Shown: positions 1-18,274 of the stretch, one piece after another
Layout: each line of letters starts with the position of its first letter
How positions within the stretch are numbered: the stretch's first letter is position 1
Assembly (NCBI GenBank): GCA_028065725.1
Contig: JAPTVL010000052.1
Coordinates: forward strand, 43,840-62,604
Length of the DNA stretch: 18,765 bases
Reading direction: 5' to 3'
DNA from: Betaproteobacteria bacterium
Lineage (GTDB): Bacteria; Pseudomonadota; Gammaproteobacteria; Burkholderiales; Rhodocyclaceae
Position numbers and translations under genes: made by a program
Notes under the pieces: generated by a model
The model's input: only the letters and a program-made list of their open reading frames with translations
Database searches by the model: none
What the model was told of the DNA's origin: nothing

Positions 1-127
1 CGCCCACCAGGGCTTCCACCGAACTCATGGTCATGCCCGAGGTGGTCACCGTGTTGGTGCCGCCGATGCTCATCGTGTTGGCCGTGGCCAGGCCCGTCAG
101 TGTGTCGGTGCCGCTGCCTCCGGTCAG
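1..127 (-). repeat. Exact 127-bp direct repeat in tpsA, second copy at the window edge
   Basis: This is the second copy of the segment at 301-427. It starts at the window edge, so the identical tract may be longer and further tandem units may follow outside. Zero differences over 127 bp suggests recent unit duplication or gene conversion. Confidence 0.95.
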
Positions 128-3100
128 CGTCTCCATGTTGCTGAAGACGGTGTTGGTGTTGAAGGTGCCCGCGTTGGCTCCGGTCACCTGCCAGGCGTTG
201 GTGCCGTCGGTGGCTTTGAGTTCGTCGGTGTTGCCGGCACCGTCGATGGTGCCGCTGAAGGTGATGCCCGAGGCCAGCGTGAAGGTGTCCGCCGCCGCGC
301 CGCCCACCAGGGCTTCCACCGAACTCATGGTCATGCCCGAGGTGGTCACCGTGTTGGTGCCGCCGATGCTCATCGTGTTGGCCGTGGCCAGGCCCGTCAG
401 TGTGTCGGTGCCGCTGCCTCCGGTCAGATTGGTAATTGCCGAGAAACTTATAATGGTGTTCAGCGTACCTGCGTTCGGACCGGTCACGACCCAAGCGTTG
501 TTGACATTGCGCCCTATCAGGGTGTCAGTGCCCCCGCCTCCCGCAATCGTTGCCGCGAACGCCGTCGCACCAGAAAGATCGACGATATCGTCTCCGATAC
601 CCCCATTGATAGCGACGGACGTTCCCGTTATGCCGGCGCTAGTCGAGAAAGTTCCAGCAGCTTCCTGACCGAAATCAAGGGTAGTCGTACCGCCGGCAGT
701 GACTGACGCGTTCAGTGTCAGATCCTTGCCCGCTGTCATTTGCACGGCACCCGCACCGGCGTTAACAGTGCCGGCCGCGGCCGATGTGATGTTGCCGCCG
801 GTTCCGGTTGCTGCCAGTGTGACGCCGGCACCTGAAATTGCCTGATTGATGGACAGCACGCCGGGCGTCAGAACGTTGATGGCCGCGCCAGTGTTGCTCA
901 GACCGGTAATGCCGCTATGGGTCCCGACGGCCAGGTTAGTCGCCGCGTTCTCGACATATATGCCGTAAGCACCAGTCACACTTGCCGCCAGCCCACCGGC
1001 ACTGACGTTGATCGGGCTGCCCGAACCGCCGATACCGTAGGGTGCGGAACCAGCGGAAGTCGCCGAGTGCAACGCCACGCTCCCGGTGGTGGTGATGGAC
1101 ACGGCGCCCGAGGCGTCGGTGATCGTGCCATTGGCTCCCAGAAAGACGTTGCCGCTGCCGACCTGAATGGCGTTGTCGGCCAACGCGAGGTGTGCGCCTG
1201 CGACGCCAAAACTCAAGGATGTCAGGCCGCTCGTCTTGACAAGGCTGGTGATCGTAACCGTGCCACCCGCATCGGCCACCGAGTGCGTAAGGCCGTCTGC
1301 CGTCAGCAATCGCTGGTCGGTCGCCCCTCCTCCACTGTAGGTCTGAAAGCCAAGTTCGGTAAGGTCGGTGCCGGGTTTGACTTGTATGTTGTATTTGCTG
1401 CCTGAGACGCTCAGCCGGCCGGCATCCACGATGATCGCATTGCCGGCCGGGTCGCCGGCCTGCGACCCCTGCGTGATGATGAAGTCAACCTTGCCGGTCG
1501 CTCCGGCGGTCAGCGTCGCCAGACCCAAGCCTGCGGCAGCAACACTGCCCGCGGCGACAAAGTCAGTCGCAGCGCTCCTACGCATATTGAGCGTAATCGT
1601 GCCGCCATTACCAACGGTGATGTCCCTCAGTACCGCACCGCCAGTACCGGTGCCACCGCCGTTATTCAGATCGACCTCAACCGCGCTGACGCCGGCGTTG
1701 GTGGTCACGATCGAACTGCCAGCCGCCATGGTGAAAGCGTCGGTACCTGCATTGTCCTTGTTCGCCCAATAAAGCTGCGTCGCATCGCCCGAATTGACTG
1801 CCCCGTTCAGGGTGATGGCGTTCTGGGCCTGAACCGAAACCGCCCCACCGCTCGTCGTGCCGTCCGTGCTGATGGCTGCAACCGAAATGCCGCCGGAGCT
1901 TGCCGTAAGGGTCACCGCTCCACCCGCAGTCGCAGATGCCGTGTTGGTGGCGATGGCTCCCGAGGCAGCGATGCTGGACGCGGAAATACCTACGTTGCCT
2001 CCGCCGGTAGCGAGCCCTCCGATGGTCGCGACTCCAGTCGTGGTGATATTCAGCGCGCCGCCTGCGGTGGTGATCGTATCCGTGGCAGCGCCATTCATTA
2101 CGAATCCACCGGAGCCGGCGTTGAAGGACACGGAATTTCCAGCGGTTTGTGCCAGGTTCAGATTATTGTCGGTGAGGTCATCAACCGTGATGCTGTTCGA
2201 TGCGGTTAATGCAATGTTGGTCGTTGCAGCGATGCCTTCCAATTCGCTCTCGTAAATCGTTGTCGGACCGGCATCTGTCGAAAGTACCGTTCCCAATCCG
2301 CCAGCGGTGCCGGTGAAGGTCGTAGTCGAGGTGTCACCGTCTCCAGTGCCGTTTCCCGAGCCATTCAGTATCGTTATGTCCGCCGGGTCAAGCAGCAGGA
2401 TGCCGGTCTTGCCATTTGACGCCAGGGTGTTCACCGTGCCTTTGAACGTCAGATACTTTTTGCCGGAAACCTCCACAGAACCGCCATCACCAGACTGGGC
2501 GCCACCTCGCGCACCGATATCACCGTAGAAGCGCGTGCTGTCATCCGCCCAAACCACCACCTTGCCGCCGTTGCCGGTCCCAACCGCGTCGGCATTGATC
2601 GTCACGCCCTTGCCAACATAGGTCGCGCTGGCGTTCTGCTCCGGCCCTTTACCCTGCCAGTTGCCGCCAACCAGCGCCGTACCGCCGGCGCCGACTCCCG
2701 AGACGTCGATGCTCGCCTGGCCGAAGAGGCCGACCTTGTCGCCCAGCACCTTGACCGCGCCACCGCTTTGACCATTTGCGGTGCCGGAGGCGTCGAGGGT
2801 GCCGGTGACGCTGACCACGCCGGAATTGCCGCCGCCCAGCCAGATTTCGCCATTGCGGGTTTCGAGGCTGCGCGCGCGGATGACGCCGTCGTTGTTGAGT
2901 ACTGTGGACAGCAGGGCATCCTTGGCCTGCGCGTTCATCACTACACGGCCGCCGTCGGCGATCAGCACGCCGCTGTTGTCGGCGCGTGCGCCTGCCGCGG
3001 CGAGGTTGACCTGGAAGCTCAGCAGACCGTCGTGATCGAAGTCGAGATTGACCGAGTCGCCGGCGGCAAGGCCGATGCTGCCGCCGGGCGCGTGGATGGT

Positions 3101-3745
3101 GCCGCTGTTGGCGACCTGCGGCGCAATCAGGGCGACGAAACCACCGTCGGCGACATTGATGTTGCCCTGATTCGTCACCGTACCGCCGGCGCCGACTTTC
3201 GCAAAGTTGTATCTGCCGGCGAGAAAGTTGGCATCGGAAATGCCCAGCGAGGAGGCGACCAGACCGCCGACATCGACCTGCGCGCCGGGCGCAAACAGGA
3301 TGCCGCCGGGGTTGCTGATGAAGACATTGCCGTTGGCGGTCATGCGGCCGAAGATCGCCGAGCCGTCGCCGCCCAGCACGCGGTTGAGGATGACGGAGGA
3401 AGCAGCGGGCTGCGCGAAATTGACGTGGGCCTGACTGCCGATGTTGAAGCTGTCCCAATTGACGATGGCGCTGCCGGACGACTGGGTCACGTCCATGCGT
3501 GCGCCGCTGCTGCTGATGCCGACCTGTCCCGCCGCCACCTGCCCGCCGGTGGGCAGCGCGGTTGGCGCCGGCGCATCGGCCGCTGTCACGCCACCGGCAC
3601 CCAGCGCCAGCAAGGTACCGGCGACTACCGCGCAGGTGGTGCGCTTGCCGCGCGTACGGGCAAATTCGGCGACGGCGACCCAGGTGGCGTGCAGTTCGCT
3701 CCAGACCAGACGGTAGGCGCGATTCAGGGTAGCGTGCTTGAACAT
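1..3745 (-). CDS. Two-partner secretion exoprotein (TpsA), filamentous-haemagglutinin type, 3' end outside window
   Basis: A single minus-strand frame stays open for 1248 codons and leaves the window without a stop, so the protein is C-terminally incomplete here. Residues 1-36 form an extended signal-peptide region (NRAYRLVW, WVAVAEFAR, TRGKR) typical of type V secreted giants. A hydrophobic stretch at about 37-56 (VVAGTLLALGAGG) completes the signal. Residues about 70-300 are the TPS haemagglutinin-activation domain with the NPGGILF motif at 145-151. Gly/Ala/Thr/Ser-rich beta-helix sequence follows, and the last ~150 residues are repeats carrying GGSGTDTLTG. By family knowledge it crosses the inner membrane by Sec and the outer membrane through its TpsB partner, encoded immediately upstream, and acts as a surface adhesin or large secreted protein. 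The ATG at 3745 is preferred over the one at 3751 because AGAGGA lies 7 nt upstream of it but only 1 nt from the other. The ligand cannot be inferred. Confidence 0.93.
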   Translation of the reverse strand, partial: MFKHATLNRAYRLVWSELHATWVAVAEFARTRGKRTTCAVVAGTLLALGAGGVTAADAPAPTALPTGGQVAAGQVGISSSGARMDVTQSSGSAIVNWDSFNIGSQAHVNFAQPAASSVILNRVLGGDGSAIFGRMTANGNVFISNPGGILFAPGAQVDVGGLVASSLGISDANFLAGRYNFAKVGAGGTVTNQGNINVADGGFVALIAPQVANSGTIHAPGGSIGLAAGDSVNLDFDHDGLLSFQVNLAAAGARADNSGVLIADGGRVVMNAQAKDALLSTVLNNDGVIRARSLETRNGEIWLGGGNSGVVSVTGTLDASGTANGQSGGAVKVLGDKVGLFGQASIDVSGVGAGGTALVGGNWQGKGPEQNASATYVGKGVTINADAVGTGNGGKVVVWADDSTRFYGDIGARGGAQSGDGGSVEVSGKKYLTFKGTVNTLASNGKTGILLLDPADITILNGSGNGTGDGDTSTTTFTGTAGGLGTVLSTDAGPTTIYESELEGIAATTNIALTASNSITVDDLTDNNLNLAQTAGNSVSFNAGSGGFVMNGAATDTITTAGGALNITTTGVATIGGLATGGGNVGISASSIAASGAIATNTASATAGGAVTLTASSGGISVAAISTDGTTSGGAVSVQAQNAITLNGAVNSGDATQLYWANKDNAGTDAFTMAAGSSIVTTNAGVSAVEVDLNNGGGTGTGGAVLRDITVGNGGTITLNMRRSAATDFVAAGSVAAAGLGLATLTAGATGKVDFIITQGSQAGDPAGNAIIVDAGRLSVSGSKYNIQVKPGTDLTELGFQTYSGGGATDQRLLTADGLTHSVADAGGTVTITSLVKTSGLTSLSFGVAGAHLALADNAIQVGSGNVFLGANGTITDASGAVSITTTGSVALHSATSAGSAPYGIGGSGSPINVSAGGLAASVTGAYGIYVENAATNLAVGTHSGITGLSNTGAAINVLTPGVLSINQAISGAGVTLAATGTGGNITSAAAGTVNAGAGAVQMTAGKDLTLNASVTAGGTTTLDFGQEAAGTFSTSAGITGTSVAINGGIGDDIVDLSGATAFAATIAGGGGTDTLIGRNVNNAWVVTGPNAGTLNTIISFSAITNLTGGSGTDTLTGLATANTMSIGGTNTVTTSGMTMSSVEALVGGAAADTFTLASGITFSGTIDGAGNTDELKATDGTNAWQVTGANAGTFNTNTVFSNMETLTGGSGTDTLTGLATANTMSIGGTNTVTTSGMTMSSVEALVG
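301..427 (-). repeat. Exact 127-bp direct repeat in tpsA, copy nearer the N-terminus
   Basis: This segment is identical base for base to 1-127, at a spacing of exactly 300 bp (100 codons), so the reading frame is preserved. It encodes about 42 residues including GGSGTDTLTG and TMSSVEALVG. The flanking parts of the 100-residue unit (NAWxVTGxNAGT) are recognisably similar but diverged. Confidence 0.95.
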
Positions 3746-3752
3746 GGCCATG

Positions 3753-3758
3753 TCCTCT
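3753..3758 (-). promoter_or_regulatory. Ribosome binding site that decides the tpsA start
   Basis: AGAGGA is separated by 7 nt from the ATG at 3745. The in-frame ATG at 3751 would be only 1 nt away, too close to be used. Confidence 0.6.
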
Positions 3759-3769
3759 TGCTTTTTGCA

Positions 3770-3801
3770 CGCGCCAATCCATGTGGGGTCGGATTGGCGC
3801 G
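3770..3801 (-). promoter_or_regulatory. Strong hairpin in the tpsB-tpsA intergenic gap
   Basis: GCGCCAATCC and GGATTGGCGC are perfect inverted arms around a 10-nt loop, with one more C-G pair making an 11-bp stem. It lies inside the 71-bp gap between the tpsB stop and the tpsA start, just upstream of the tpsA ribosome binding site. There is no long T-run after it on the minus strand, so a full terminator is unlikely. A role in transcript processing, partial attenuation or translation control is inference. Confidence 0.55.
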
Positions 3802-3816
3802 GCAACGATTCGCGAA

Positions 3817-5589
3817 TCAGAAAAACTTGCTGAACTGGAAGTAGAAGCGCGGATAGCGCAGCAGATGATCTGCGGTTGCCCGGGTGGTGTCACGAAAAGC
3901 CAGTGTAGTCCGCAAATACCAGTCGTTGGGAACTTCCCAATTGAGTCCGATACCGGGACCGGCCACCCGGCGCAGGCGTTCCGCATTGGCGGCGAAATCA
4001 GCCGCGGCTGGACGCTTGATCAGAATGGCGCGGCCGAAATCATAGAAGCCGGCAAGCACCATGCTGCCGGGCAGGCTTTCCTCGAGCGGCAGGCGGTAGC
4101 GCAGTTCGAGACTGGCAACATAGCCTTCGTCGCCGGCGCCTTCGCCCTGCGGGTAGGCGCGCACGGCGTTCGGACCGCCGAGACTGAATTTTTCGCTCGG
4201 ATCGAGGTTCTTGTTGGTGAATTGCTGGCTGTAGGAACCATACAGCGCCAGACGCTCGGAAATTGCCTGCAGGCGCGATAGCGAGATATTGGTCTTGCCG
4301 TAGAGGCCCCGGGTCCGGCGTCCGGCCAGGTCGGCGGCTTCCAGCGCGGCATTGCCGAATTTCAGTTCGCCCAGGGTATAGGCCACGTTGAAAACATTGA
4401 TGCCACCGCCGCCGAGACGATCGCGGAAGTCGCCCGACAGGCCGAGCGAGCTGACGTCGGTTTTCTTGAGGGTCTCCGGAGACGGGGAAACGCCGAGCTG
4501 GATATCATAAAATTTCCGTTTGTCATACTGGGCGATCAACATCAGGTTGGTGTTGCGCGAACGGATGAAGGGATGGATCGCGGTCAGCGAATTGACTGCC
4601 GCCGCGCCATTGACCTTGAGCGGCACGAACAGCGGTGTGCCCAGGCGGTATTTGAGTTCGGAGTAGGCGGCGCCAAGCTTGGTGCCCCAGCGACCGACCG
4701 GAAACAGGACCGAGGCACGGGCAAAGCGCAAATTGCCGTCGATGGCGTTGGTGGCGCGCAGACTGATGATTTCGCCGAAACCCAGCAGGCCGTTGCCGTC
4801 AACGCCGGCGCCGATACGATGCAGGCCGGTGTAGATCGAGCCGTTGGCGTCGAAGTCGAGATTGGCATCGAGTTTCTTGCCGGCGCCGACCCGAATGGTC
4901 AGGTCGGCGGTTCCCGCCGCCGTCCCGGGTGCGAAACTGCTGGTGGCCACGATGCCGCGCAGGTCATGAATCTGGAACAGGGCCCGCTCCACCACCGAAG
5001 TCTGGATCAGGCCACCTTCTTCCAGCGAGCCCAGGTAGGACTCCAGCAGGGCGCGATTGATCGAAACTTCCGGCGCGACTTCGAGGCGAACCTTGCCCAG
5101 ACGGCCTTCGAGCACCCGCAGTTCGACGATTCCGTCGGCGATCTTCTGTTCGGGAACCGCCACGTCGGCAAGAAAGTAGCCGCGCCCGGCAATCTCCCTG
5201 CGGACCACCGCGGCGGCATCGAGCAGATCCTGGAAACGCTTGTCCTTGCCGACGAATGGCGCCAATGCCTCCGTCATTTCCAACTCGGATGCGATGGTCA
5301 GGCCGACGATGCGAAAACCCTTGATCTCCAGACGCATGCCTTCGACATCGGCAATCGCACGCGGCTTGGAAAATTTGTCCTCGATACTCGGGCCGGAATC
5401 GGGACGGGCTGCCGGCGGTGGCACCGTCTTCAGGATTTGACCGACATCGGGGGCGGATTGCGCCACGGCGGCGCCCCACGACAGCACAAGTGCCGCAGCG
5501 GCCAGCTTGAAACGCCATGCCCGACCGGTCTGCGATGCATCCGGCCGATGCTTTGCATTTACCGTGCTGATGATCCCTCCCCCAACCAA
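3817..5589 (-). CDS. Two-partner secretion transporter (TpsB), ShlB/FhaC/HecB family
   Basis: This is a 590-residue outer-membrane beta-barrel of the Omp85/TpsB superfamily that exports the adjacent TpsA. After a signal peptide (hydrophobic core about residues 29-45, ending AVAQSA) comes a short proline-containing linker. Two POTRA-like domains lie at about 80-230 (MRLEIKGFRIVGL; VPEQKIADGIVELRVLEGRLGKV), and the rest is a 16-strand-type barrel. The conserved lid-loop motif is seen as GGPNAVRAYPQGEG with the invariant Arg. The protein ends in Phe (FQFSKFF), as expected for a BAM-assembled barrel. Length matches FhaC. The start is uncertain: the frame opens at TTG 5589, no in-frame ATG precedes the signal peptide, and no strong Shine-Dalgarno is visible. 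It lies 71 bp upstream of tpsA in the same direction, the usual B-A order. Confidence 0.93.
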   Translation of the reverse strand: MVGGGIISTVNAKHRPDASQTGRAWRFKLAAAALVLSWGAAVAQSAPDVGQILKTVPPPAARPDSGPSIEDKFSKPRAIADVEGMRLEIKGFRIVGLTIASELEMTEALAPFVGKDKRFQDLLDAAAVVRREIAGRGYFLADVAVPEQKIADGIVELRVLEGRLGKVRLEVAPEVSINRALLESYLGSLEEGGLIQTSVVERALFQIHDLRGIVATSSFAPGTAAGTADLTIRVGAGKKLDANLDFDANGSIYTGLHRIGAGVDGNGLLGFGEIISLRATNAIDGNLRFARASVLFPVGRWGTKLGAAYSELKYRLGTPLFVPLKVNGAAAVNSLTAIHPFIRSRNTNLMLIAQYDKRKFYDIQLGVSPSPETLKKTDVSSLGLSGDFRDRLGGGGINVFNVAYTLGELKFGNAALEAADLAGRRTRGLYGKTNISLSRLQAISERLALYGSYSQQFTNKNLDPSEKFSLGGPNAVRAYPQGEGAGDEGYVASLELRYRLPLEESLPGSMVLAGFYDFGRAILIKRPAAADFAANAERLRRVAGPGIGLNWEVPNDWYLRTTLAFRDTTRATADHLLRYPRFYFQFSKFF

Positions 5590-5660
5590 CCCGGACGTCT
5601 GCCTTATGGGCAGAACGCTGGACTGCCTGCCTGAATATTATGCTGAGGATGCGCTAACTC

Positions 5661-5674
5661 GTTGACCTTTCAAC
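5661..5674. promoter_or_regulatory. Short palindrome upstream of tpsB
   Basis: GTTGA-CCTT-TCAAC is a perfect 5-bp inverted repeat in the AT-rich gap before tpsB, next to a possible -10. It could be an operator half-site pair. No regulator family is recognised. Confidence 0.25.
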
Positions 5675-5675
5675 A

Positions 5676-5705
5676 ATAATACAATGAGCACGGCCGCTGC
5701 GTCTA
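5676..5705 (-). promoter_or_regulatory. Possible sigma-70 promoter for tpsB-tpsA
   Basis: TATTAT (5681-5676, 5/6 match to the -10 consensus) is preceded at 18 bp by TAGACG (4/6 to -35). This AT-rich patch in the 149-bp gap is the best promoter candidate before tpsB. It is weak and read by eye only. Confidence 0.25.
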
Positions 5706-5738
5706 TAAGCACATGCGGCAGGTTTTGTCCCGGCCGGA

Positions 5739-6617
5739 TCAGTAACCGCGGGTCGGCAGCCGGAACGGGGGGCGATAACCCTGGTCCAGGGCCTTTTTCT
5801 CGAAGCGGGCGGCATCGGCGACGAATCCGCCGTAATTGTAGAACTCGGCCAGTTCCCAACTCGCCGCTCCGCTGCCCAGTTCGGCGGCGAAACGCAGCCA
5901 CTGCTCCATCCGCCGGGGATTGGCGGCAACGCCGGAAATACCGGCCCGATAGGCAAGAGCCAGGCTGTAGGCCGCATCCTTGTCGCCGCGCACGGCCTTG
6001 CCAAGATTGGTGCGATACGCCTCGTCGCCAATCGCCTCCTCGAAGAAGTCTCCGGAAAGTCCGGTGGAACGCTGGATATCCAGCGCCTGACGGGCGGCCG
6101 CGGCGATATGCCTGATTTCAACGGCGAACTGGCTGGCAGGAAAATCGCGTTCGCACTCATCGACCAGTTTGATCAGGCGGGACGGCTGCAGCACGGACTG
6201 GATTTGCTGGCGACATTCCGCCATCCTGGCGGAGCGGTCGTTGGGTTCTGCCACCGGCTCGGCAGACGGGATACGCTTCCCCATCGCAGTGTGCAGAATC
6301 CCGGCCTGCGCCTTGAACTCGGCTTTCAGCTTGGTGTTTGGACTGAGCTTGTACCGCGGCCGAGTCTTGCGCTCCGGCTGACTCACTTTGTCCGCCACCT
6401 CCGTTGCCGCGTGAGCTTCCGTCATCGCGGGCGACGGAATGCCCCGGCTCTGGAGTCCGTTCCCGGCCAGCGCGAAAGCCGGTGCCAGGAGCATCGCCAG
6501 AATCGCAAAGCCGCGGCAGAAACCGCGAGCGGCGGCGCACGTCGCACGAGTCGGCGCTGGCGGAACGGCGGCTGGTGTCGCCCCGCGCCGGTCTTCACGG
6601 GGGAACTCAATAACCAC
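5739..6617 (-). CDS. Exported Sel1-repeat protein, protease-less paralogue of the neighbouring caspase
   Basis: A 292-residue reading if started at GTG 6617, which overlaps the stop of the upstream caspase gene by 11 bp (translational coupling). An ATG 41 codons later at the start of MLLAPAFALA is an alternative. A hydrophobic segment at about 37-51 ending AFALA looks like a Sec signal, so the protein is probably periplasmic. Residues about 80-135 are charged and low in structure. Residues 145-292 align without gaps with the last ~148 residues of the caspase-Sel1 protein, about two-thirds identical by hand alignment. They contain Sel1 motifs (DAAYSLALAYRAG; MEQWLRFAAELGSGAASWEL). Both proteins end in TRGY. 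There is no caspase domain. Sel1 repeats mediate protein-protein contacts, so a scaffold, decoy or regulator of the caspases is inferred. Confidence 0.75.
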   Translation of the reverse strand: MVIEFPREDRRGATPAAVPPAPTRATCAAARGFCRGFAILAMLLAPAFALAGNGLQSRGIPSPAMTEAHAATEVADKVSQPERKTRPRYKLSPNTKLKAEFKAQAGILHTAMGKRIPSAEPVAEPNDRSARMAECRQQIQSVLQPSRLIKLVDECERDFPASQFAVEIRHIAAAARQALDIQRSTGLSGDFFEEAIGDEAYRTNLGKAVRGDKDAAYSLALAYRAGISGVAANPRRMEQWLRFAAELGSGAASWELAEFYNYGGFVADAARFEKKALDQGYRPPFRLPTRGY

Positions 6618-8058
6618 GGGTCGCCAGCCTGGGTGGCGGCCGGTAGCCGAGGTCAAGAGCCTTCTTCTCGAACCGGGCGGCTTCGCCGACCAGCCCGCTC
6701 TGGTTATAGCTCTCGGAAAGCTCCCAGCTGGCAATGCCGTTGCCCAGTTCGGCGGCAAAGCGCAACCATTGTTCCATCCGGCGCGGACTGGCCGCCACGC
6801 CGGAAGTGCCGTCGCGGTAGGCAATGGCGATCCGGTGTGCCGCGTCCTTGTCGCCGCGCAGGGCCTTGATCAGATCGTCGCGATAGCCTTTGTCGCCTGC
6901 CGACTCCTCGAAAAGATCGCCGGAAAGTCGTGCCGAGCGCTGGCTTTCGAGGGCCTGCTGGGCGCCGGCAATCGTCACCCGGATCTGCTGGCTGAATTCG
7001 CTGCCGGGGAAATCCCGCTCGAAATCCTCGCACAGGCGAATCAGGCGTGCCGGCCTCAGGGTAGTCAGCAGGGCTTCCCAGCGTTGTTCCATCACGGTCG
7101 GATCGACGCCGGTCAATGCCGTACCTTTCGACCGGCTGCGTTGCAATTCCAGCTGCCGATTGCGGATCACGAAGCGGCCGCGCAGATTGGAAGAGCTTTC
7201 GGGAAACTGGGGCAGGATGGTCAGCTTGACCTTGTCGAACTCGGCCTTGACGCGCGCCTGGCAGTCCAGGGCGGCGATCCGGAACAAGTCGTCGATCGGC
7301 GTCACGCCGTTGGCTTCGCGCAGCACATCGATCAAGGCAGCGGCAAAGAAAGTATTGCGGTCGGGGCTGATGGGAGCCAATGCAGGACGGCCGGCGCGTG
7401 TGGCAAAAAACACCAGCGTGCCTTCAGGGGCCGCGATCTGGTTGAAATCATCGACTCCCTTGCGGACGAAGGGGTCGGTGCGGCAGGCGTCGATCAATGC
7501 GATGCTGATGCCTGGATAACGCTGCGGCAATCCTGCCAGGATATCCTCGTTCAGTCGCAGCGAGGAGCTGAGGGCTTTTTCCGAGGATGGATCGACCCGC
7601 GCCGGGACCAGATAGTTGCGTCCGGCCGACTGAAAACCGTGGCCGCAGAAATAGAACACCACGGCAACGCCGCCCGGCAGGTTGGCTTCACCGACCGATC
7701 GCAGCTCCGCGCTGAATTCGGTCAATACCCTCATCGTTTCCAGGGCATCAAGGTCGCGATAATCCCTGACCTTGAATTCATAGTACTGGAGGACATCCTT
7801 CAGGTCGGCGACGTTCTTGTGGGCCGGCGCAATGTCCTTGCGGTTCGGATAGTCGCGGTTGCCGATCAGCAGGGCGAACTTGGCGCGCGGCGCGTAAATG
7901 TCCTGGATCGGCTGTCCGCCGGAAGACTGGGCGAGCAACTCCGGAGCCAGGGCTCCCAGGGCCAGGCCGGCGCCGCCGCCCAGCAGCAGGCTGCGGCGCA
8001 GCGAACTGCGTGGCGCGTCCGTTGCCTGGTTCCGCATGTCGAATTTACCGCTGGTCAC
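6607..8058 (-). CDS. Exported caspase-like (C14) protease with C-terminal Sel1 repeats
   Basis: A 483-residue protein. Residues 17-43 form a twin-arginine-type signal (LRRSLLLGGGAGLALG, ending LLA), suggesting Tat export; the ATG at codon 8 is an alternative start. The caspase/metacaspase p20-like domain spans about 58-285: the first strand is FALLIGNRDY (61-70), the catalytic His is H140 in YFCGHGFQ and the catalytic Cys is C192 in LIDACRTDPF. Both are present, so it is predicted active. Residues about 335-483 are Sel1-like repeats and match the whole C-terminus of the next gene. The start codon shares ATGA with the stop of the upstream caspase-FGE gene, and its own end overlaps the next gene, so the three are probably co-translated. 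Substrate specificity is unknown; bacterial C14 relatives often cut after Arg/Lys or Asp. Confidence 0.87.
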   Translation of the reverse strand: MTSGKFDMRNQATDAPRSSLRRSLLLGGGAGLALGALAPELLAQSSGGQPIQDIYAPRAKFALLIGNRDYPNRKDIAPAHKNVADLKDVLQYYEFKVRDYRDLDALETMRVLTEFSAELRSVGEANLPGGVAVVFYFCGHGFQSAGRNYLVPARVDPSSEKALSSSLRLNEDILAGLPQRYPGISIALIDACRTDPFVRKGVDDFNQIAAPEGTLVFFATRAGRPALAPISPDRNTFFAAALIDVLREANGVTPIDDLFRIAALDCQARVKAEFDKVKLTILPQFPESSSNLRGRFVIRNRQLELQRSRSKGTALTGVDPTVMEQRWEALLTTLRPARLIRLCEDFERDFPGSEFSQQIRVTIAGAQQALESQRSARLSGDLFEESAGDKGYRDDLIKALRGDKDAAHRIAIAYRDGTSGVAASPRRMEQWLRFAAELGNGIASWELSESYNQSGLVGEAARFEKKALDLGYRPPPRLATRGY

Positions 8059-10058
8059 GGCAAGGAACGCGCGACCCGGAAACCCACGTTATCGTGACGT
8101 TCCTCCCGCGAATCGCGATCCCGGTAGGCCGCACGCACCGTAGTCGGATTGCTGTTCCAGGCGCCACCACGAAACACCCGCTCGGTACAGGATCCGGAAA
8201 GGCGGGGTTTGGCCACGTCAGGAGCGCCGGCATAGCCTTCGTTCCAGCAATCCTCGACCCATTCCCATGCATTGCCCAGGATGTCATGCACGCCGAAGGA
8301 ATTGGCCGGGAAACGGCCGACAGGCGAAGTCAGGGCGAAACCATCCGAACACGGAAACATCTGCGCGCCCGGCGTAACGCTTTTCAGCGACGTATCGGCG
8401 ACGCTGGCATAGCGACACACCGCGGCATTGTCCGCCTCGGCCCAGTAGCGGCTGCCGGTACTGCCAGCACGGGCGACATACTCCCACTCCGCCTCGTTCA
8501 GCAGCCGATACTGCTTGACCGCCTTCTTGCTCAGCCACGCGGCGTAGGCCTGGGCATCCTCCCAACTGACGCAGACGACCGGCTCATCGTCCTTCTGCTC
8601 GAAACCGGGGTGCTGCCAGGTGGCCTTCGGATTCTTGTGGAAGACGCCGCCGCGGGTGGAATGGCAGCCGGGCTTGTGCTCGCGTCCGGTGTCCTTGACG
8701 AAGGCGGCATATTGCGCACGCGTGACTTCGAACTTGCCGACGGCAAAGGGGGCCGCAACGCGCACCCGATGGGCCGGCTCTTCGTCGAGTTCGCGCATTT
8801 TTTCCTTCGGGCCGCTGCCCATCGTGAAATCGCCCGCCGCCACCGCGACCAGGTCGGGACATTCCGGACAATCCTGAATCAGGGTTCCGGGCGAGGGGAT
8901 GGCCCCCGCGGCGACCGCGAGCGCCGGTAGCGGCTGCACCGGCGACGGCGCCGCCAGCGCCAACTGCTCCGGCCTCGCCGCCATGGCAGGCGTCGCACGC
9001 CGCGCAGCGGCGGGCGGCACCACTCCGCCGTGCTTCTGCACCATCCAGCGGGCATAAGCCGCCCGCTGCGCCCCGGAAAATTTTTCCAGGTAGGCGATGA
9101 AGTCCGCCGGATTCTTGCTGTCCTTGATCCGCTCCCAGAAGGCCCGCTCCTGTACCGGATCGTAAGGCAGTGCCACCGCCTCCGCCGCCGCCTCATGCGT
9201 CGCCGCCACGGAGACGTTCGGACGCCGTAGCGCCGCAAGGTCTTCGGCAGGATCGAAATAGAAACTGCCGATCACCGAACTCGAGGTCCAGGGCACCTGC
9301 TCGCCGTTGGTATCCTGGACGACGCCGGTACGCACGCGACCGAATACCTTGTCGATGTCGGTATCCCTGGTTTCGAGCGCGCGCAACAGATGCTTGGTAT
9401 AGAGACCGTTGCGCCCCGTGCCGTCGGCGGCGGTGGAACCCGGCGACGTGGCATAGGCGATAAAGGTGCCCTTTTCCGCCCGGCCGACGTTCATCACCCC
9501 GAGGCCCTTGTTGATGGTTTTCCGCGCCAGCTGCAAGGGGTTGTTGCGGCAGGCATCGAGAATCACCACGTTGATGCGGTTGCCTGCCTCGGCCATGCGC
9601 GAGAGCACGTACTCGGCACTGATCGACTTGAAGGCGATATCGGTTTCGTTGTCGAAGCCGACATCCACGGGAAGCAGGAAGTTCTGGTCCTTCAGCTGAA
9701 TGCCATGGCCGGCGAAGAAGAACAGTCCGATGCCGCCTTTTTTGAGATGCTTGGAAAAGATATCGACGGCTTCCTTGAGCCCCCGTTCGCCGACATTTTC
9801 GCGCACCAGGACGGTGAAGCCCCGCTTTTCCAGCACACTCGCCAGATCGCTGGCATCGTTCGCCGGATTGTCCAGCGGAGCCGCCTTGTAGTCGGAATTG
9901 CCGATGATCAAGGCGACGCGGGCTTCTTGGGATTTCGCCTGTCCGAACACCTGACCGATGGTGCCAAGCAGCATCAGACCGAGCGCAATGGCGCAACACC
10001 ATCGACCGAAGTAAGTCGATGGTTTCCCGGCTGAATAAGGTAACGCGCTGATCGGCAT
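8055..10058 (-). CDS. Exported caspase-like protease fused to an FGE-sulfatase-fold domain
   Basis: A 667-residue protein from ATG 10058. The frame is open to a TTG at 10121, but that codon lies within the likely promoter. Residues about 18-40 form a signal peptide (CAIALGLMLLGTIGQVFGQA). The caspase domain is at about 47-269 (VALIIGNSDY; His118 in FFFAGHGIQ; Cys170 in ILDACRNNPL), with both catalytic residues present. A linker at about 299-345 (FWERIKDSKNPADFIAYL) resembles the helical segment found in many bacterial caspases. It is followed by a Pro/Ala-rich stretch and an FGE/SUMF1-like domain at 397-667 (GDFTMGS, KFEVTRAQYAAF, LLNEAEWEYVARAG, LGNAWEWVEDCW, RGGAW, GFRVA). The paired cysteines expected near RGGAW in catalytic FGE are absent, so this domain probably binds rather than modifies. 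Other cysteines (CPEC, CHSTRGG, FPCSDG, EDCWNEG) could form periplasmic disulfides. Confidence 0.88.
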   Translation of the reverse strand: MPISALPYSAGKPSTYFGRWCCAIALGLMLLGTIGQVFGQAKSQEARVALIIGNSDYKAAPLDNPANDASDLASVLEKRGFTVLVRENVGERGLKEAVDIFSKHLKKGGIGLFFFAGHGIQLKDQNFLLPVDVGFDNETDIAFKSISAEYVLSRMAEAGNRINVVILDACRNNPLQLARKTINKGLGVMNVGRAEKGTFIAYATSPGSTAADGTGRNGLYTKHLLRALETRDTDIDKVFGRVRTGVVQDTNGEQVPWTSSSVIGSFYFDPAEDLAALRRPNVSVAATHEAAAEAVALPYDPVQERAFWERIKDSKNPADFIAYLEKFSGAQRAAYARWMVQKHGGVVPPAAARRATPAMAARPEQLALAAPSPVQPLPALAVAAGAIPSPGTLIQDCPECPDLVAVAAGDFTMGSGPKEKMRELDEEPAHRVRVAAPFAVGKFEVTRAQYAAFVKDTGREHKPGCHSTRGGVFHKNPKATWQHPGFEQKDDEPVVCVSWEDAQAYAAWLSKKAVKQYRLLNEAEWEYVARAGSTGSRYWAEADNAAVCRYASVADTSLKSVTPGAQMFPCSDGFALTSPVGRFPANSFGVHDILGNAWEWVEDCWNEGYAGAPDVAKPRLSGSCTERVFRGGAWNSNPTTVRAAYRDRDSREERHDNVGFRVARSLP

Positions 10059-10107
10059 CGAAAAATGCTGGATAAAAATGTCCCCGGACTCAAGGCTGGA
10101 TTTTTTG

Positions 10108-10135
10108 ATTATCCCACCCAAACTAGAAATTTCAA
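10108..10135 (-). promoter_or_regulatory. Sigma-70-type promoter of the caspase operon
   Basis: TTGAAA (10135-10130) and GATAAT (10113-10108) are separated by 16 bp in a markedly AT-rich patch. Each matches its consensus in five or so of six positions. Transcription would start near 10101, giving a leader of about 43 nt before ATG 10058 and arguing against the TTG at 10121. The caspase genes can therefore be expressed apart from the cyclase gene upstream. Confidence 0.55.
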
Positions 10136-10193
10136 CTATTCATGCAAGATCGACAGGATCCGATTGTTTGGGTTCCCGCCCTGTCGCCGATTC

Positions 10194-13238
<3,045 letters not shown>

Positions 13239-13273
13239 GCCACCCCGATTTGCCGATTGCGGAGCGGTCTGTC

Positions 13274-13831
13274 GTGAGCAAACGCGCCCCACCTTCCGCC
13301 GAGGAGCGCGCCGTGTTCCGCGATGCGGTGGCCGATGTCGAGCGGCTGCAATGGGACCGCGTGCACCACGAACCGCCGCTGCCGCCGGCGATTCCGCGTC
13401 AGCACCTGCACGACGAAGCCGCGGCGCTCGACGAATCGCTGCATGGTCCGGTGCTGATCGATCTCTATCTGGAAGGCGGCGACGAAGCCGCCTGGCGCCG
13501 CGACAGCCTGCCCAAAGCCTGGCTGCGCGATCTGCGTCGAGGGCGCTGGGTGACGCAGGAAAAGCTCGATTTGCATGGCCTGAATCGGGATCAGGCGCGG
13601 ACTGCGGTCCTTACGTTCCTGGCCGAAAGCCGGCAGCACGGCTATCGCTGTGTGCGCATCGTGCATGGCAAGGGCCTGAGTTCGCCCGGCCGCGAGCCGG
13701 TGCTGAAGAAGCTGGTGCTCGGCTGGCTGAGCCAGCGTCAGGAAGTGCTGGCCTTCTGCCAGGCCCGCGCGGCCGAAGGCGGCGCCGGTGCGGTGGTGGT
13801 ACTGCTCGCCGCTCCCAACAAACGAGCGTAG
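13274..13831 (+). CDS. Smr-domain protein (putative DNA/RNA endonuclease)
   Basis: A 185-residue protein started at GTG 13274, with GGAG 9 nt upstream. The N-terminal half is charged, with conserved-looking segments (ERAVFRDAV, YLEGGDEAAWRRDSLP) typical of the bacterial Smr/YdaL/SmrA-like group. The Smr domain occupies about 95-180 and shows LDLHGLNRDQA (98-108) and RIVHGKGLSSPG (128-139), the two signature motifs. Related proteins are structure-specific nucleases or act on RNA in ribosome rescue; which applies here cannot be decided. It follows trxB on the same strand and may be co-transcribed. It ends 3 bp from the stop of the convergent glnB gene. Confidence 0.88.
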   Translation: MSKRAPPSAEERAVFRDAVADVERLQWDRVHHEPPLPPAIPRQHLHDEAAALDESLHGPVLIDLYLEGGDEAAWRRDSLPKAWLRDLRRGRWVTQEKLDLHGLNRDQARTAVLTFLAESRQHGYRCVRIVHGKGLSSPGREPVLKKLVLGWLSQRQEVLAFCQARAAEGGAGAVVVLLAAPNKRA

Positions 13832-13834
13832 CGG

Positions 13835-14191
<357 letters not shown>

Positions 14192-14237
14192 TCAATTTCA
14201 ATGTCCTGAAGCCGTGCAAGCGGCTGAACCTCAATCA

Positions 14238-14259
14238 CCCCCTTCCCCGGGAAAGGGGG
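14238..14259. repeat. GC-only hairpin between nadE and glnB
   Basis: CCCCCTT and AAGGGGG are perfect 7-bp arms around an 8-nt loop, followed on the plus strand by a run of G broken by one C. It resembles the short intergenic palindromes scattered in many GC-rich proteobacterial genomes. It may also slow transcription after nadE, but there is no T-run. Confidence 0.5.
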
Positions 14260-14273
14260 CGGGGGGGGATGGC

Positions 14274-15896
14274 TCACCATTCTTCGGCGTAAGCCGATGT
14301 TATCGGATAGCGCCAATCCTTGCCGAATCCGCGTCGCGTGATGCGGATGCCCACCGGCGCCTGGCGCCGCTTGTATTCGTTCTTCTTCAGCATGCCGACC
14401 ACCTTGCGCACATCGGCTTCGCTGACGCCGCCGGCAATGATCTGGCGCGGGCTTTCGTCGCGCTCCATGTAGGCTTCGATGATCGCATCGAGCACCGCGT
14501 AGGGTGGCAGCGTGTCCTGGTCGGTCTGGCCGGGCTTGAGCTCGGCCGAGGGCGGGCGCGTGATGATGTTCCGCGGAATCACGTCCGAAACCGAGTTGCG
14601 CCAGCGCGCCAAGTCATAGACGAAGGTCTTCGTCACATCCTTGATCACCGCAAAGCCACCGGCCATGTCGCCGTAGAGCGTGGCGTAGCCAACCGCCATT
14701 TCGCTCTTGTTGCCGGTGGTCAGGACGATGCGTCCGGTGCGGTTCGACAACGCCATCAGCAGCATGCCGCGGATGCGCGCCTGCAGGTTTTCGTCGGTGG
14801 TGTCCCAGGCCGGCTTCGGCCCGAGCTGCGCAAAAGTCGGCGCCAGCAGCACGGCAAACTGGTCCATCGCCGCCGCAATCGGTATCTCGTCGTATTGCAC
14901 GCCGAGCCGTCGCACCATCTCGCGCGAATCGTCGAGGCTCATCTGCGCGGTCCATGGCGAAGGCATCATCACGCAACGCACCCGCTCGGCACCCAGCGCA
15001 TCGACTGCGATGGCCAGCGTCAGCGCGGAGTCGATACCACCGGAAAGACCGATGATGGCGCCGGGAAAGCCGTTCTTGCCGAGGTAGTCGGCCACCCCCA
15101 GCTTCAGCGCGGCGTAGACCTCCGCTTCGCGCGACGGCGGCTCGACCATGCGGCCGGGCAACAAATGTCCGTCGGCATAGTCGACGAATTCGAGCGCCTC
15201 GGCAAAGGCCGGCAACTGATGCGTGAGGCGGCCCTGCCCGTCCATCGCGAAGGAGGCGCCGTCGAACACCAGTTCATCCTGTCCGCCGACCAGATTGGCA
15301 TAGATCACCGGCTTGCCGGTGGCCGCCACCCGGTCGCGCAGCACCTCGTAGCGTCGCGCCTGCTTGTTCATGTGGAAGGGCGAAGCGTTGAGCGTCAGCA
15401 TCAGTTCCGCCCCGGCCATGGCGGCCGCTTCGGTGGCGCCGGATTCCCAGACATCGGCGCAGATCGCCAGGCCGCAGCGGATGCCTTTGAGGTCGATCAC
15501 GCAAGGTTCGCTGCCCGCGGCGAAGTAGCGTTCCTCGTCGAAGACCTCGTAGTTGGGCAGGCGGTGCTTGCGATAGGTTGCCGCCACCTTGCCGTCGACC
15601 AGCAGCGATGCCGCGTTGTAGCGCTTGCCGGCCGACTCCTCGGGATAGCCGATCACGATCGGCAGCGCAGCAACGCGAGCCAAAGCATCGAGTTGTGCCG
15701 CGCAGGCGCGATAAAAATCCGGCCGCATCAGCAGATCTTCGGGCGGGTAGCCGGAGAGCGCCAGCTCCGGCGTCAGCAAGACGTCGGCCCCCGCGTCACA
15801 GGCACGGACAGCCAGTTCGAGAATCCGGGCGGAATTGCCGGCAAGGTCGCCGACATGGGCGTTGAACTGGGCAATGGCGACGCGAAGGCGGCTCAT
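14274..15896 (-). CDS. nadE: Glutamine-dependent NAD+ synthetase
   Basis: A 540-residue two-domain enzyme for the last step of NAD+ synthesis: nicotinate adenine dinucleotide is amidated using ATP and glutamine. The N-terminal nitrilase/glutaminase domain (about 1-245) has the catalytic triad Glu44 (TPELALSGY), Lys110 (YRKHRLPNY) and Cys146 (AICADVWE). The C-terminal synthetase domain (about 262-540) has the ATP-pyrophosphatase loop GLSGGIDSAL at 283-292. Downstream motifs TGNKSEMAVGYATLYGDMAGG and PPSAELKPGQTDQD are present. Everything expected is intact. It lies 72 bp after ppa on the same strand and 100 bp before glnB, an arrangement that links NAD and nitrogen genes in betaproteobacteria. 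Confidence 0.97.
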   Translation of the reverse strand: MSRLRVAIAQFNAHVGDLAGNSARILELAVRACDAGADVLLTPELALSGYPPEDLLMRPDFYRACAAQLDALARVAALPIVIGYPEESAGKRYNAASLLVDGKVAATYRKHRLPNYEVFDEERYFAAGSEPCVIDLKGIRCGLAICADVWESGATEAAAMAGAELMLTLNASPFHMNKQARRYEVLRDRVAATGKPVIYANLVGGQDELVFDGASFAMDGQGRLTHQLPAFAEALEFVDYADGHLLPGRMVEPPSREAEVYAALKLGVADYLGKNGFPGAIIGLSGGIDSALTLAIAVDALGAERVRCVMMPSPWTAQMSLDDSREMVRRLGVQYDEIPIAAAMDQFAVLLAPTFAQLGPKPAWDTTDENLQARIRGMLLMALSNRTGRIVLTTGNKSEMAVGYATLYGDMAGGFAVIKDVTKTFVYDLARWRNSVSDVIPRNIITRPPSAELKPGQTDQDTLPPYAVLDAIIEAYMERDESPRQIIAGGVSEADVRKVVGMLKKNEYKRRQAPVGIRITRRGFGKDWRYPITSAYAEEW

Positions 15897-15931
15897 GGGC
15901 CTAACTATAGCGGATGCCGCCAGCAGAAAGT

Positions 15932-15945
15932 CCGCCTCGCGGCGG
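15932..15945 (-). terminator. Small GCGA-loop hairpin in the ppa-nadE gap
   Basis: CCGCC-GCGA-GGCGG on the minus strand is a 5-bp all-GC stem with a GNRA-class tetraloop, followed by ACTTTCT. It could be a weak terminator or attenuator between ppa and nadE. The short T content makes full termination unlikely. Confidence 0.3.
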
Positions 15946-15968
15946 GCTCAGACGGGGCCGGATGAAAC

Positions 15969-16517
15969 TCAAAACGCCGGCTTGTCCTTGGCGGCCTCGT
16001 ATGCGGCTACGCCTTCCATGATTTCCTTCTTGGCGTCTTCCGCGCCCAGCCAGCCCTGCACCTTGACGAACTTGCCCGGCTCCAGATCCTTGTAGTGCTG
16101 GAAGAAATGCGAGATTTGGTCGAGCACGATCTGCGGCAGGTCGCGCGGACTATCGACATCGCGGTACATCGGCGTCAGTTTGTCCACCGGCACCGCCAGC
16201 AGTTTGGCATCCTCGCCCGCTTCGTCGGTCATCTTCAGCATGCCGATCGGACGGCAACGGACCACCACCCCGGGCGGCAGGGCGAACTGCGACAGGACCA
16301 GGACATCCACCGGATCGCCGTCGCCGGCGATGGTGTGCGGAATGTAGCCGTAGTTGCAGGGGTAGTGCATGGCGGTGGACATGAAGCGATCGACGAAGAT
16401 GGCGCCGGACTCCTTGTCGACCTCGTACTTGATCGGCTCGGAGTGCATCGAAATCTCGATAACCACATTGAAATCATTCGGCAAATCCTTGCCGGAAGGA
16501 ACGCGATCAAGGCCCAC
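15969..16517 (-). CDS. ppa: Inorganic pyrophosphatase, family I
   Basis: A 182-residue soluble enzyme that hydrolyses pyrophosphate to phosphate and pulls biosynthetic reactions forward in the cytoplasm. The family I signature DGDPVDVLV carries the three metal-binding aspartates at 66, 68 and 71. Other active-site segments are KYEVDKESG (30-38), [11 protein letters not shown] (52-62) and the C-terminal [17 protein letters not shown]. The start is GTG 16517 because a near-perfect Shine-Dalgarno, AAAGGAG, lies 5 nt upstream. It is divergent from the hemP iron operon and first in the ppa-nadE-glnB series. Confidence 0.97.
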
Positions 16518-16522
16518 GGCTA

Positions 16523-16529
16523 CTCCTTT
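16523..16529 (-). promoter_or_regulatory. Ribosome binding site fixing the GTG start of ppa
   Basis: AAAGGAG lies 5 nt before GTG 16517. It is nearly full complementarity to the 16S rRNA tail and outweighs the poor start codon. Confidence 0.75.
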
Positions 16530-16627
16530 GTGCGAAAGTGCGAATTATAGCCCTGCGAAGATTTCGCCTTCCTGACACCCGGAAGTCGCCTCTCCCCGGA
16601 TTTGCCGACAAAAACTGCAACCCCCTG

Positions 16628-16656
16628 TTGACAATATGGATCAAATCAATGAGAAT
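16628..16656 (+). promoter_or_regulatory. Sigma-70 promoter of the hemP-bfd-bfr operon
   Basis: A perfect -35 TTGACA (16628-16633) is followed at exactly 17 bp by GAGAAT (16651-16656, 4/6 to the -10 consensus). The start point would be near 16663, about 30 nt before hemP. The -10 is embedded in the Fur box. Confidence 0.65.
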
Positions 16657-16663
16657 CATTCGC
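16645..16663 (+). promoter_or_regulatory. Fur box over the hemP promoter -10
   Basis: This 19-bp site has the core AATGAGAATCATT and matches the classical Fur consensus at 13 of 19 positions. It covers the -10 and the likely start point, so iron-loaded Fur would block polymerase. The downstream iron genes agree with this reading. Confidence 0.75.
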
Positions 16664-16693
16664 ATTAAGTTTTAGATTGAAACACAGTCCGCA

Positions 16694-16876
16694 ATGAAGA
16701 CCGACACCCAGCCAGCCAGCACCAGGCCCGAACTGCCGCGCAGCGGCGTCGAAGCGCCGCGCCCGCTCGACAGCGCCGCCCTGCTCGGTGCGAAGGGCGA
16801 GATCGAAATCACCCATCGGGGCGAAACCTACCGCCTGCGGCGCACCCGCCAAGGCAAGCTGATCCTCACCAAATAA
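16694..16876 (+). CDS. hemP: Hemin uptake protein HemP/HmuP family
   Basis: A 60-residue protein. The N-terminal half is polar and variable; the C-terminal half carries the family core, LLGAKGEIEITHRGETYRL followed by RRTRQGKLILTK. Small HemP/HmuP proteins accompany haem and iron uptake loci and in some rhizobia and Burkholderia-type bacteria are needed for expression of the haem receptor. The molecular role is not settled. It is first behind the Fur-controlled promoter and 13 bp upstream of bfd. The ribosome binding site is poor. Confidence 0.85.
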   Translation: MKTDTQPASTRPELPRSGVEAPRPLDSAALLGAKGEIEITHRGETYRLRRTRQGKLILTK

Positions 16877-16889
16877 TCCGGGAGCCATC

Positions 16890-17102
16890 ATGTACGTCTG
16901 CATCTGCAATGCCGTCACCGAACGCGATATCGGCAGCGCCGTGGCCCAAGGCTGCGGCAGTCTGCGACAATTGCGCGAGCAACTCGGCGTCGGCGCCTGC
17001 TGTGGCCGCTGCACGGGTTGCGCGCGCGACGTGCTGAAAAATTCCCTGCACGCTCACACGCCCCATCGACCCGCTGCCGCCGGGCAACTGGCGGCGGCCT
17101 GA
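16890..17102 (+). CDS. bfd: Bacterioferritin-associated ferredoxin
   Basis: A 70-residue [2Fe-2S] protein that donates electrons to bacterioferritin haem to release stored iron as Fe(II). The cluster cysteines match the Bfd pattern: Cys4 and Cys6 ([10 protein letters not shown]), then Cys38 and Cys41 (CCGRCTGC). Cys37, Cys44 and Cys22 are extra. The BFD-like fold ends near residue 52, and the last ~18 residues are a His/Pro/Ala-rich tail. GGGAG lies 6 nt before the ATG. It sits between hemP and bfr, so storage and release proteins are made together. Confidence 0.93.
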
Positions 17103-17119
17103 ACGACGAGAGGCTCCCC

Positions 17120-17602
17120 ATGAAAGGCGACAAGAAAGTCATCCAGCTCCTCAACAAGTGCCTGGTCAATGAGCTGACCGCGATCAACCAGTATTTCCTG
17201 CACGCCCGCATGTACAAGAACTGGGGCTTTGCTACCCTGGGCAAGCACGAGTACGAGGAGTCGATCGAAGAGATGCACCACGCCGACAAGCTGATCGAGC
17301 GCGTGCTGTTCCTCGAAGGCCTGCCCAACCTGCAGGCGCTGAACAAGCTGATCATCGGCGAAAACGTGCCCGAATGCCTGGCCGGCGACCTCACGCTGGA
17401 ACAGGGCGCGCACGCCGATACCAAGGCCGCGATCACCTATTGCGAAAGCGTGCACGACTACGTTTCGCGCGAGATTCTGGAAGACATCCTGGAAGATACC
17501 GAAGAACACATCGACTATCTCGAAACCCAGCTCGAACTGATCGCCAAGGTCGGCGTGCAGAACTACCTGCAGTCGGCCATGGGAGAGTCGCCCGCTTCCT
17601 GA
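17120..17602 (+). CDS. bfr: Bacterioferritin
   Basis: A 160-residue subunit of the 24-mer haem-containing iron store. Haem-ligand Met52 is present (IEEMHHADK). Of the di-iron ferroxidase ligands, Glu18, Glu51, His54, Glu94 and His130 are present. The position of the bridging glutamate 127 is Thr127 ([12 protein letters not shown], where classical Bfr has Glu three residues before the His). The alignment has no gap. This may reduce ferroxidase activity or mark a subunit type that works with a partner, as in bacteria with two Bfr subunits. GAGAGG precedes the ATG at 17120; the frame is open earlier, but bfd occupies that region and the family N-terminus MKGDKKVI fixes the start. It lies 17 bp after bfd. 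Confidence 0.95.
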
Positions 17603-17612
17603 TATCCGCATT

Positions 17613-17638
17613 GCCGGGGCCGGTTGCACCGCCCCGGC
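17613..17638 (+). terminator. GC-rich hairpin after bfr
   Basis: GCCGGGGC and GCCCCGGC form a perfect 8-bp stem with a 10-nt loop, starting 10 nt after the bfr stop. No T-run follows, so it may be a 3'-end stabiliser or a Rho-linked or partial stop rather than a classic terminator. It separates bfr from the P19 gene. Confidence 0.45.
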
Positions 17639-18272: not shown

Positions 18273-18274
18273 TC

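Follow-up and report, generated by a model that had tools for sequence, protein, structure and literature searches.

Exported-looking caspases beside a tail-sharing two-partner secretion exoprotein in betaproteobacteria, and their putative part in its release

The closest described counterparts of the locus reported here are two-partner secretion (TPS) systems, in which an exoprotein (TpsA) is paired with an outer-membrane transporter (TpsB). As given in the excerpts of reviews and papers on which we draw, the disulfide-closed C-terminus of the TpsAs HMW1 and HxuA of Haemophilus influenzae locks in the TpsB pore (PMC5422565, PMC8151025), the periplasmic tail of CdrA of Pseudomonas aeruginosa is cut by LapG when cyclic di-GMP is low so that the adhesin is released (PMC5422565), and FhaB of Bordetella is trimmed by DegP, CtpA and SphB1 (PMC8263021). 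A maturation protease of this sort appears, in the part of a 2017 review used here, not to belong to TPS operons (PMC5422565). Here we describe a TPS locus with three caspase-related genes, g1, g2 and g3, in an 18,765-nucleotide stretch of a Betaproteobacteria bacterium (assembly GCA_028065725.1, contig JAPTVL010000052.1, positions 43,840 to 62,604, the whole of which we call the window). TpsAs of related loci end in a common tail that is tied one-to-one to a g2-type caspase. In many betaproteobacteria, exported-looking caspases lie next to a giant tail-sharing surface protein, which they would likely set free by cutting the tail.

All genes of the locus lie on the minus strand and are transcribed in the order CHASE2 cyclase, g1, g2, g3, TpsB, TpsA.

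10194..12089, minus strand: membrane sensor with a CHASE2 domain and an adenylate/guanylate cyclase domain (Pfam CHASE2 5e-29, Guanylate_cyc 2.7e-23)
10108..10135, minus strand: promoter-like site before g1, TTGAAA-16-GATAAT with TG (10/12 consensus matches)
8055..10121, minus strand, ATG at 10058 the likely start: g1, caspase-FGE protein with a Sec-like signal (Pfam C14 1.6e-37, FGE-sulfatase 1e-62)
6607..8058, minus strand: g2, paracaspase-like protease whose C-terminal domain is helical and Sel1/TPR-like; twin-arginine-like signal at the N-terminus (Pfam C14 1.1e-20)
5739..6617, minus strand: g3, Sel1-like protein lacking a caspase domain, with a signal-like N-terminus; paralogue of the C-terminal half of g2
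3817..5589, minus strand: TpsB, ShlB/FhaC-type outer-membrane transporter with POTRA (Pfam ShlB 2.8e-21, POTRA_2 1.2e-11)
2..3805, minus strand: TpsA, incomplete exoprotein of the filamentous-haemagglutinin type with an ESPR signal and a TPS domain (Pfam TPS, PF05860, 2.3e-33; ESPR 1.4e-9)

The window holds both parts by which a TPS locus is recognised, a TpsB with POTRA and a ShlB-type barrel and an adjoining TpsA with an N-terminal TPS domain. An earlier annotation of g1, g2 and g3, made from the letters alone and here called the first-pass annotation, had described the three as an operon encoding an envelope protease complex; its observation is partly confirmed and its interpretation partly supported, and it overlooked both neighbours of the three genes, the CHASE2 cyclase immediately upstream and the TPS pair immediately downstream. 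TpsA runs off the left edge of the window, which leaves its conserved tail outside; a complete relative including the tail lies at L001:14360-18412 (related loci are numbered with L). Next to that edge (window 1-700), translated TpsA contains a repeated block of about 110 residues.

Related loci were collected by scanning a genome collection with a g2 profile and keeping the best 80 of 106. The TpsAs encoded beside a g2-type caspase share a tail at the C-terminus, roughly 100 residues long and with two cysteines at its end, which we aligned (alignment A3) from 28 hand-chosen rows of 45 open reading frames (ORFs) with the tail motif, all from loci found by their caspase. The tail had no Pfam match in four complete TpsAs (L001, L026, L027 and L121) and no NCBIfam match in two of them (L001 and L026), which gave matches to TPS, ESPR and repeat domains only. 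We obtained 71 distinct tails from 87 matches above 30 bits; in four of the 71 the aligned columns do not include the second cysteine. All 71 have N66 and C98, E65 and G74 are found in 69, and the second cysteine is present in all 67 tails whose end is aligned. The 16 complete tail-bearing TpsAs examined, from 1070 to 4601 residues long, all lack cysteine from residue 120 to the last 60 residues and all have exactly two cysteines, spaced 8-11, in those last 60; any cysteine in that end region was seen in 3/19 TpsAs without the tail. Exactly two cysteines in the last 60 residues likewise characterise 80 of 82 tail ORFs above 60 bits.

To place tail and caspase in a wider sample, we scored 399 genomes of one family, drawn evenly and not limited to those with a locus found by its caspase, with both profiles; some of the positives are also sources of the 80 loci, and at most 11 tail and at most 4 caspase candidates were scored per genome, so that misses are possible. 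Of the 399 genomes, 24 gave a match to the tail profile, which scored at least 92 bits in 23. Among the matches listed, 112 genomes had one to the g2 profile; in 23 of these it covered the full length at 419 bits or more. Apart from the diverged second caspases described below, the other matches listed scored about 150 bits or less and mostly covered the caspase domain alone. The 23 genomes with a strong tail and the 23 with a full-length caspase are the same genomes (Fisher 7e-38, ignoring kinship). The pair lies on one contig in 22 of them, with profile ends 6-228 bp apart (median 72.5), and in the last genome, G573, tail and caspase are both at contig ends. Three genomes (G571, G692 and G633) encode an additional caspase that has diverged (233-261 bits), and in every case it is accompanied by a second tail that is likewise diverged (35-36 bits). 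The TpsA tail is tied one-to-one to the g2-type caspase. TPS domains are frequent in the same family, with 219 matches in 95/200 genomes among the matches listed, and a strong tail occurs in 11 of those 95; the tail is not a general feature of TpsAs. Wider samples yielded 3/300 genomes from the order, including the seed and one already known, and 1/274 from the class, which is the seed itself.

A TPS part (TpsB, TpsA or tail) flanks the g2-type caspase in 68/80 loci; of the rest, six have the type VI secretion system (T6SS) gene for ClpV beside the caspase, and six have neither, five of these being cut off no more than 334 bp from the caspase on the side that matters. The caspase gene takes one of three positions. 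In the Sulfuritalea group it precedes TpsB-TpsA on the same strand, in Zoogloea, Accumulibacter and others it is divergent from TpsB, and in Aquabacterium, Rubrivivax and others it directly follows TpsA. Of the 80 loci, only those of the Sulfuritalea group were found to contain g1 and g3, and the nearest named relative found is a Sulfuritalea bin (L001), whose g2 is 96% identical. The close loci number 19 (L001-L018 and L063). The first-pass annotation had proposed co-occurrence as a check on the coupling of its genes, and this held: g1 and g2 are together in 19/19, and cyclase, g1, g2, g3, TpsB and TpsA were all seen in 14/19. Two of the other five are cut by contig ends (L008 and L017), two are without g3 (L015 and L016) and one is without TPS genes (L014). 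Relatives of g3 are present in 16/19, as is a cyclase upstream of g1 on the same strand; in L016 the cyclase is inverted.

Behind TpsA in L001 lie an OmpA-family protein and a protein without a Pfam match (18548-19108 and 19105-19767), which are possible further members of the locus beyond the left edge of the window.

The His/Cys pair, which had been noted as kept in both caspases, is conserved in the relatives as well: H139 and C191 of g1 in 20/20 aligned proteins, and H140 and C192 of g2 in 109/109, which argues for catalysis. MALT1 and the metacaspases cut after basic residues. An acidic residue, D190, stands beside the active-site cysteine of g2 in 109/109; a second position is Asn82 in 106/109, and its counterpart in g1 is Asp89, found with the preceding residue as N88-D89 in 20/20. 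That position is acidic in arginine-specific relatives, and g1 looks like a standard basic-specific enzyme. The best solved match to g2 is the MALT1 paracaspase, by sequence profile (6.6e-20) and by fold, using a structure model with a mean predicted local distance difference test (pLDDT) of 83 and a predicted template modelling score of 0.83, in which residues 1-51 fall below 50. The caspase-FGE and caspase assignments of the first-pass annotation are borne out by Pfam, while its Sel1 label is weak: Sel1 gives 0.062 for g3, below the Pfam cut-off, and no match for g2. By alignment (A2), g3 and the C-terminal half of g2 are 43% identical, as paralogues. As regards the catalytic cysteines of true FGEs, the RGGAW motif in the FGE domain of g1 is, by eye, not followed by a cysteine.

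Each protein had also been credited with an export signal, and the N-termini agree: they fit Sec export for g1 and g3 and twin-arginine translocation (Tat) for g2. Averaged over 13 residues, the N-terminal hydrophobic stretches of g1 and g3 score 2.36 and 2.45 on the Kyte-Doolittle scale, and no internal segment of the proteins exceeds 1.71; the stretch of g2 reaches 1.72 and has a twin-arginine (RR) pair in front. The RR pair precedes the caspase domain in 29 of 34 aligned g2 relatives, one protein (P0094) whose pair lies within the domain not being counted.

These data lead us to favour, at about even chances, a reading in which the three genes of this TPS locus serve its exoprotein, the predicted-exported g2-type caspase cutting the C-terminal tail of TpsA and so releasing or maturing it. 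TpsA would be threaded through TpsB, and its cysteine-closed tail would stay in the periplasm as a plug, as for HMW1 and HxuA. Exported by the Tat pathway, g2 would recognise the tail through its helical C-terminal domain and cleave it, the leading candidate for the cut being R72 (LR-x-GV in alignment A3). An added layer would exist in the Sulfuritalea group, with g1 perhaps as an activator or second protease and g3 as a competitor or adaptor for the tail, and the upstream CHASE2 cyclase may supply the signal. The complete version of this scheme, a release switch in which a plugged filament is freed when the CHASE2 cyclase signals a Tat-exported paracaspase to cut at a conserved arginine, is tentative, and we regard it as possible rather than probable.

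If the favoured reading holds, a release protease is built into TPS loci and type V secretion has a dedicated maturation protease, which would give a bacterial caspase a role in secretion and not in death. To our knowledge, few bacterial caspases have a known substrate, and here a C14 family is tied to a defined stretch of a partner protein, offering a specific, testable substrate and a candidate site. Placing caspases in envelope biology would also matter for the annotation of bacterial caspases and of 'cell death'.

Several observations weigh against tail cutting, and most concern the candidate site. R72 is found in 61/71 tails only; it is replaced by an arginine one position later in three, it is replaced without a substitute in L146 though the caspase is adjacent, and it is missing in all six tails whose caspase lies in a T6SS cluster. 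That last loss would fit a cut site lost after separation as well as a site other than R72, and does not decide between them. A P1 arginine for g2 is itself not certain, because Asn82 stands where g1 has Asp89. The structure model of the tail is poor (pLDDT 57), and five tail ORFs cut by a locus edge have one or two extra cysteines above the last 60 residues. Arginine plus lysine make up a median 3.9% of the tail-bearing TpsAs (n=14) and 4.8% of controls (n=20), these being the longest ORF on the strand of a Pfam TPS match, with Limnobacter-type L081 (4.3%) and L082 (7.1%) left out; the difference is small and does not carry the case, and we set depletion of these residues aside as a sign of protease avoidance. 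The linkage has its own exceptions: L014 keeps g1-g2-g3 and truly lacks a TPS part, the 10.8 kb downstream being free of TPS genes and its genome yielding no tail, G544 matches the tail profile weakly (24.9 bits) and lacks the caspase, and two further TPS loci (L088 and L091) hold a caspase while their TpsAs are without the conserved tail. Finally, shared ancestry explains part of the agreement between tail and caspase. Their distances correlate strongly (Mantel r 0.89 over 57 loci, 0/999 permutations as high), but we do not use this as proof because common descent gives the same result.

The caspases of L088 and L091 are of a second kind (C14 with TPR and CsgG/FlgT_C), encoded upstream of TpsB-TpsA on the same strand at L088:10457-12862 (minus strand) and L091:8994-11936 (plus strand); they overlap the frame of the TPS genes in L088 and lie about 0.8 kb from them in L091. 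Because this kind is found with a tail-less TpsA, recruitment of caspases into TPS loci may have happened repeatedly. Two small proteins also touch on the tail. At L084:3994-4593 and L085:3900-4544, both on the plus strand and directly after TpsB, there are proteins made of two half-tails, 200 and 215 residues long when counted between stop codons; they end like a TpsA tail, and the 9-10 kb covered at each locus contain no g2-type caspase.

Read as we favour, the locus shares with CdrA-LapG a TPS exoprotein whose periplasmic C-terminal tail is cut by a protease under the control of a nucleotide second messenger, the cutting and its control being proposed for the present locus. It differs in the caspase/paracaspase fold of the protease, which is encoded in the TPS locus, in the CHASE2 cyclase nearby and in the different conserved tail. 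The present proteases match C14 caspase and have no Pfam match to the LapG-type family, and because the protease family differs the locus is not a member of the CdrA-LapG group, though the two would be functionally alike if tail cutting holds. A cysteine pair near the TpsA C-terminus is common to HMW1, HxuA and the relatives studied here (the 16 complete proteins and 80 of 82 ORFs above), a likeness drawn from descriptions, whereas the present tail keeps its sequence along some 100 residues and is linked to a protease gene. FhaB processing, as the excerpt used here describes it, also involves the regulated periplasmic removal of a C-terminal part of TpsA (PMC8263021), but DegP, CtpA and SphB1 belong to other protease families. 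MALT1 and the bacterial C14 caspases have the same fold and catalytic His/Cys; unlike them, g2 combines predicted export, a C-terminal Sel1-like domain and a TPS partner.

The composition of the locus had been called uncharacterised, which stands in part. A 2012 survey of metacaspases, in the sections drawn on here, counts caspase-FGE in 33 and caspase-Sel1 in 40 of 671 sequences, the same domain pairs as in g1 and g2, and mentions in some of them a helix at the N-terminus as a possible signal peptide (PMC3501461). Because these pairs were catalogued then, the domain composition of g1 and g2 alone is not new; the word 'hemagglutinin' occurs 0 times in the main text of that survey (PMC3501461), unlike the TPS setting found here, and 'caspase' 0 times in the main text of two TPS reviews (PMC5422565, PMC8151025). 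The legend of supplementary Figure S7 of a 2005 Campylobacter paper marks metacaspase-like proteins in putative TPS loci, and that legend, through which alone we know these loci, states no function, tail or pairing (PMC539331). A further paper has 'two-partner secretion' and 'metacaspase' both only in its reference list (PMC11077975). Caspase-like peptidases were proposed in 2012 to release parts of exported proteins, namely polymorphic toxins, but in the excerpt available the caspase-like domain lies inside the toxin itself and the table row for type V secretion names HINT as the processing protease (PMC3482391). Among the matches listed in the open-access literature (titles and the starts of abstracts, subscription papers and preprints lying outside), we found no description of a caspase gene in a TPS locus, nor did we meet the tail, its one-to-one pairing with an exported-looking caspase or the release mechanism.

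The direction of action may be the reverse of what we propose, which we consider unlikely: TpsA would sense surface contact, and its periplasmic tail would switch the caspase on against other envelope proteins. A one-to-one linkage of tail and caspase suits a regulator as well as a substrate, R72 is not universal whereas N66 and C98 are, and g2 has a helical repeat-like domain that this reading could also use. Another target is not apparent, and cleavage of the TpsA tail by a protease makes the simpler case, with a precedent in the review excerpt cited for CdrA (PMC5422565).

A part in contact-dependent competition with the T6SS, in which TpsA would bind a neighbour and the caspase would be a delivered effector or a processing enzyme, is improbable. 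T6SS genes (TssC, ClpV, TssF, TssG or TagF) are present in 17/80 loci, and the caspase is directly beside ClpV in six (L043, L052, L066, L075, L076 and L078). Against this, none of the five genes is found in 63/80 loci, many of them shortened by contig ends; the six ClpV-side caspases keep, by eye, the RR pair and the hydrophobic N-terminus, and each of their genomes has one tail-bearing TpsA elsewhere. The four complete TpsAs scanned with Pfam are without a VENN-type pretoxin domain and TpsA ends are conserved, not variable, and we rejected a contact-dependent inhibition (CdiA) toxin on these grounds.

It is more doubtful still that the caspases are non-proteolytic assembly factors or chaperones of TpsA, with the conserved active site serving another process. 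The existence of g3 as a caspase-free copy of the g2 C-terminal domain would suit such a role, as would the occurrence of that domain by itself at other places in 7 of the 23 positive genomes among the matches listed, but H140 and C192, kept in every aligned relative, speak for catalysis. Anti-phage defence by self-killing, with the caspases as death effectors and the cyclase making an alarm signal, we likewise hold very unlikely and rejected: PADLOC, run on five proteins, gave partial matches only, to one caspase model (g1 7.1e-11, g2 5e-4) and to Pycsar cyclase models (best 3.2e-30), with no other defence model and no full named system. The export-like N-termini of g1, g2 and g3, the CHASE2 sensor of the cyclase and the tight link to a TPS exoprotein also speak against it.

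The genetically coupled, envelope-directed protease set that the first-pass annotation had inferred is supported by these results. Its self-contained complex of three proteins leaves out the main partner, the TPS exoprotein, and with that partner found we rejected a closed three-protein complex. At the level of the genes, the three are real. If GTG starts are used, the overlap of g2 and g3 is 11 bp as described, and that of g1 and g2, with g2 beginning at the GTG at 8058, has the four bases GTGA instead of ATGA. The promoter that had been called good is present as a site, but three sites of this quality were found in positions 1-12600 against 2.3 expected by chance.

Proteins with a lone g2 C-terminal domain and no caspase were seen at L093:6342-7502, L094:5824-6972, L095:7054-7851 (minus strand), L096:6323-7159 and L097:5022-8084; these stretches gave no TPS match, and the two proteins scanned, those of L093 and L095, had no Pfam match. 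An Rfam scan gave no match and no tRNAs were found, and a plasmid search returned 132 partially matching records, none reaching 80% coverage of g2. Upstream of the cyclase, window positions 12100-18760 are by eye housekeeping-like, with genes resembling those for thioredoxin reductase, an Smr domain protein, P-II, NAD synthase, pyrophosphatase and bacterioferritin.

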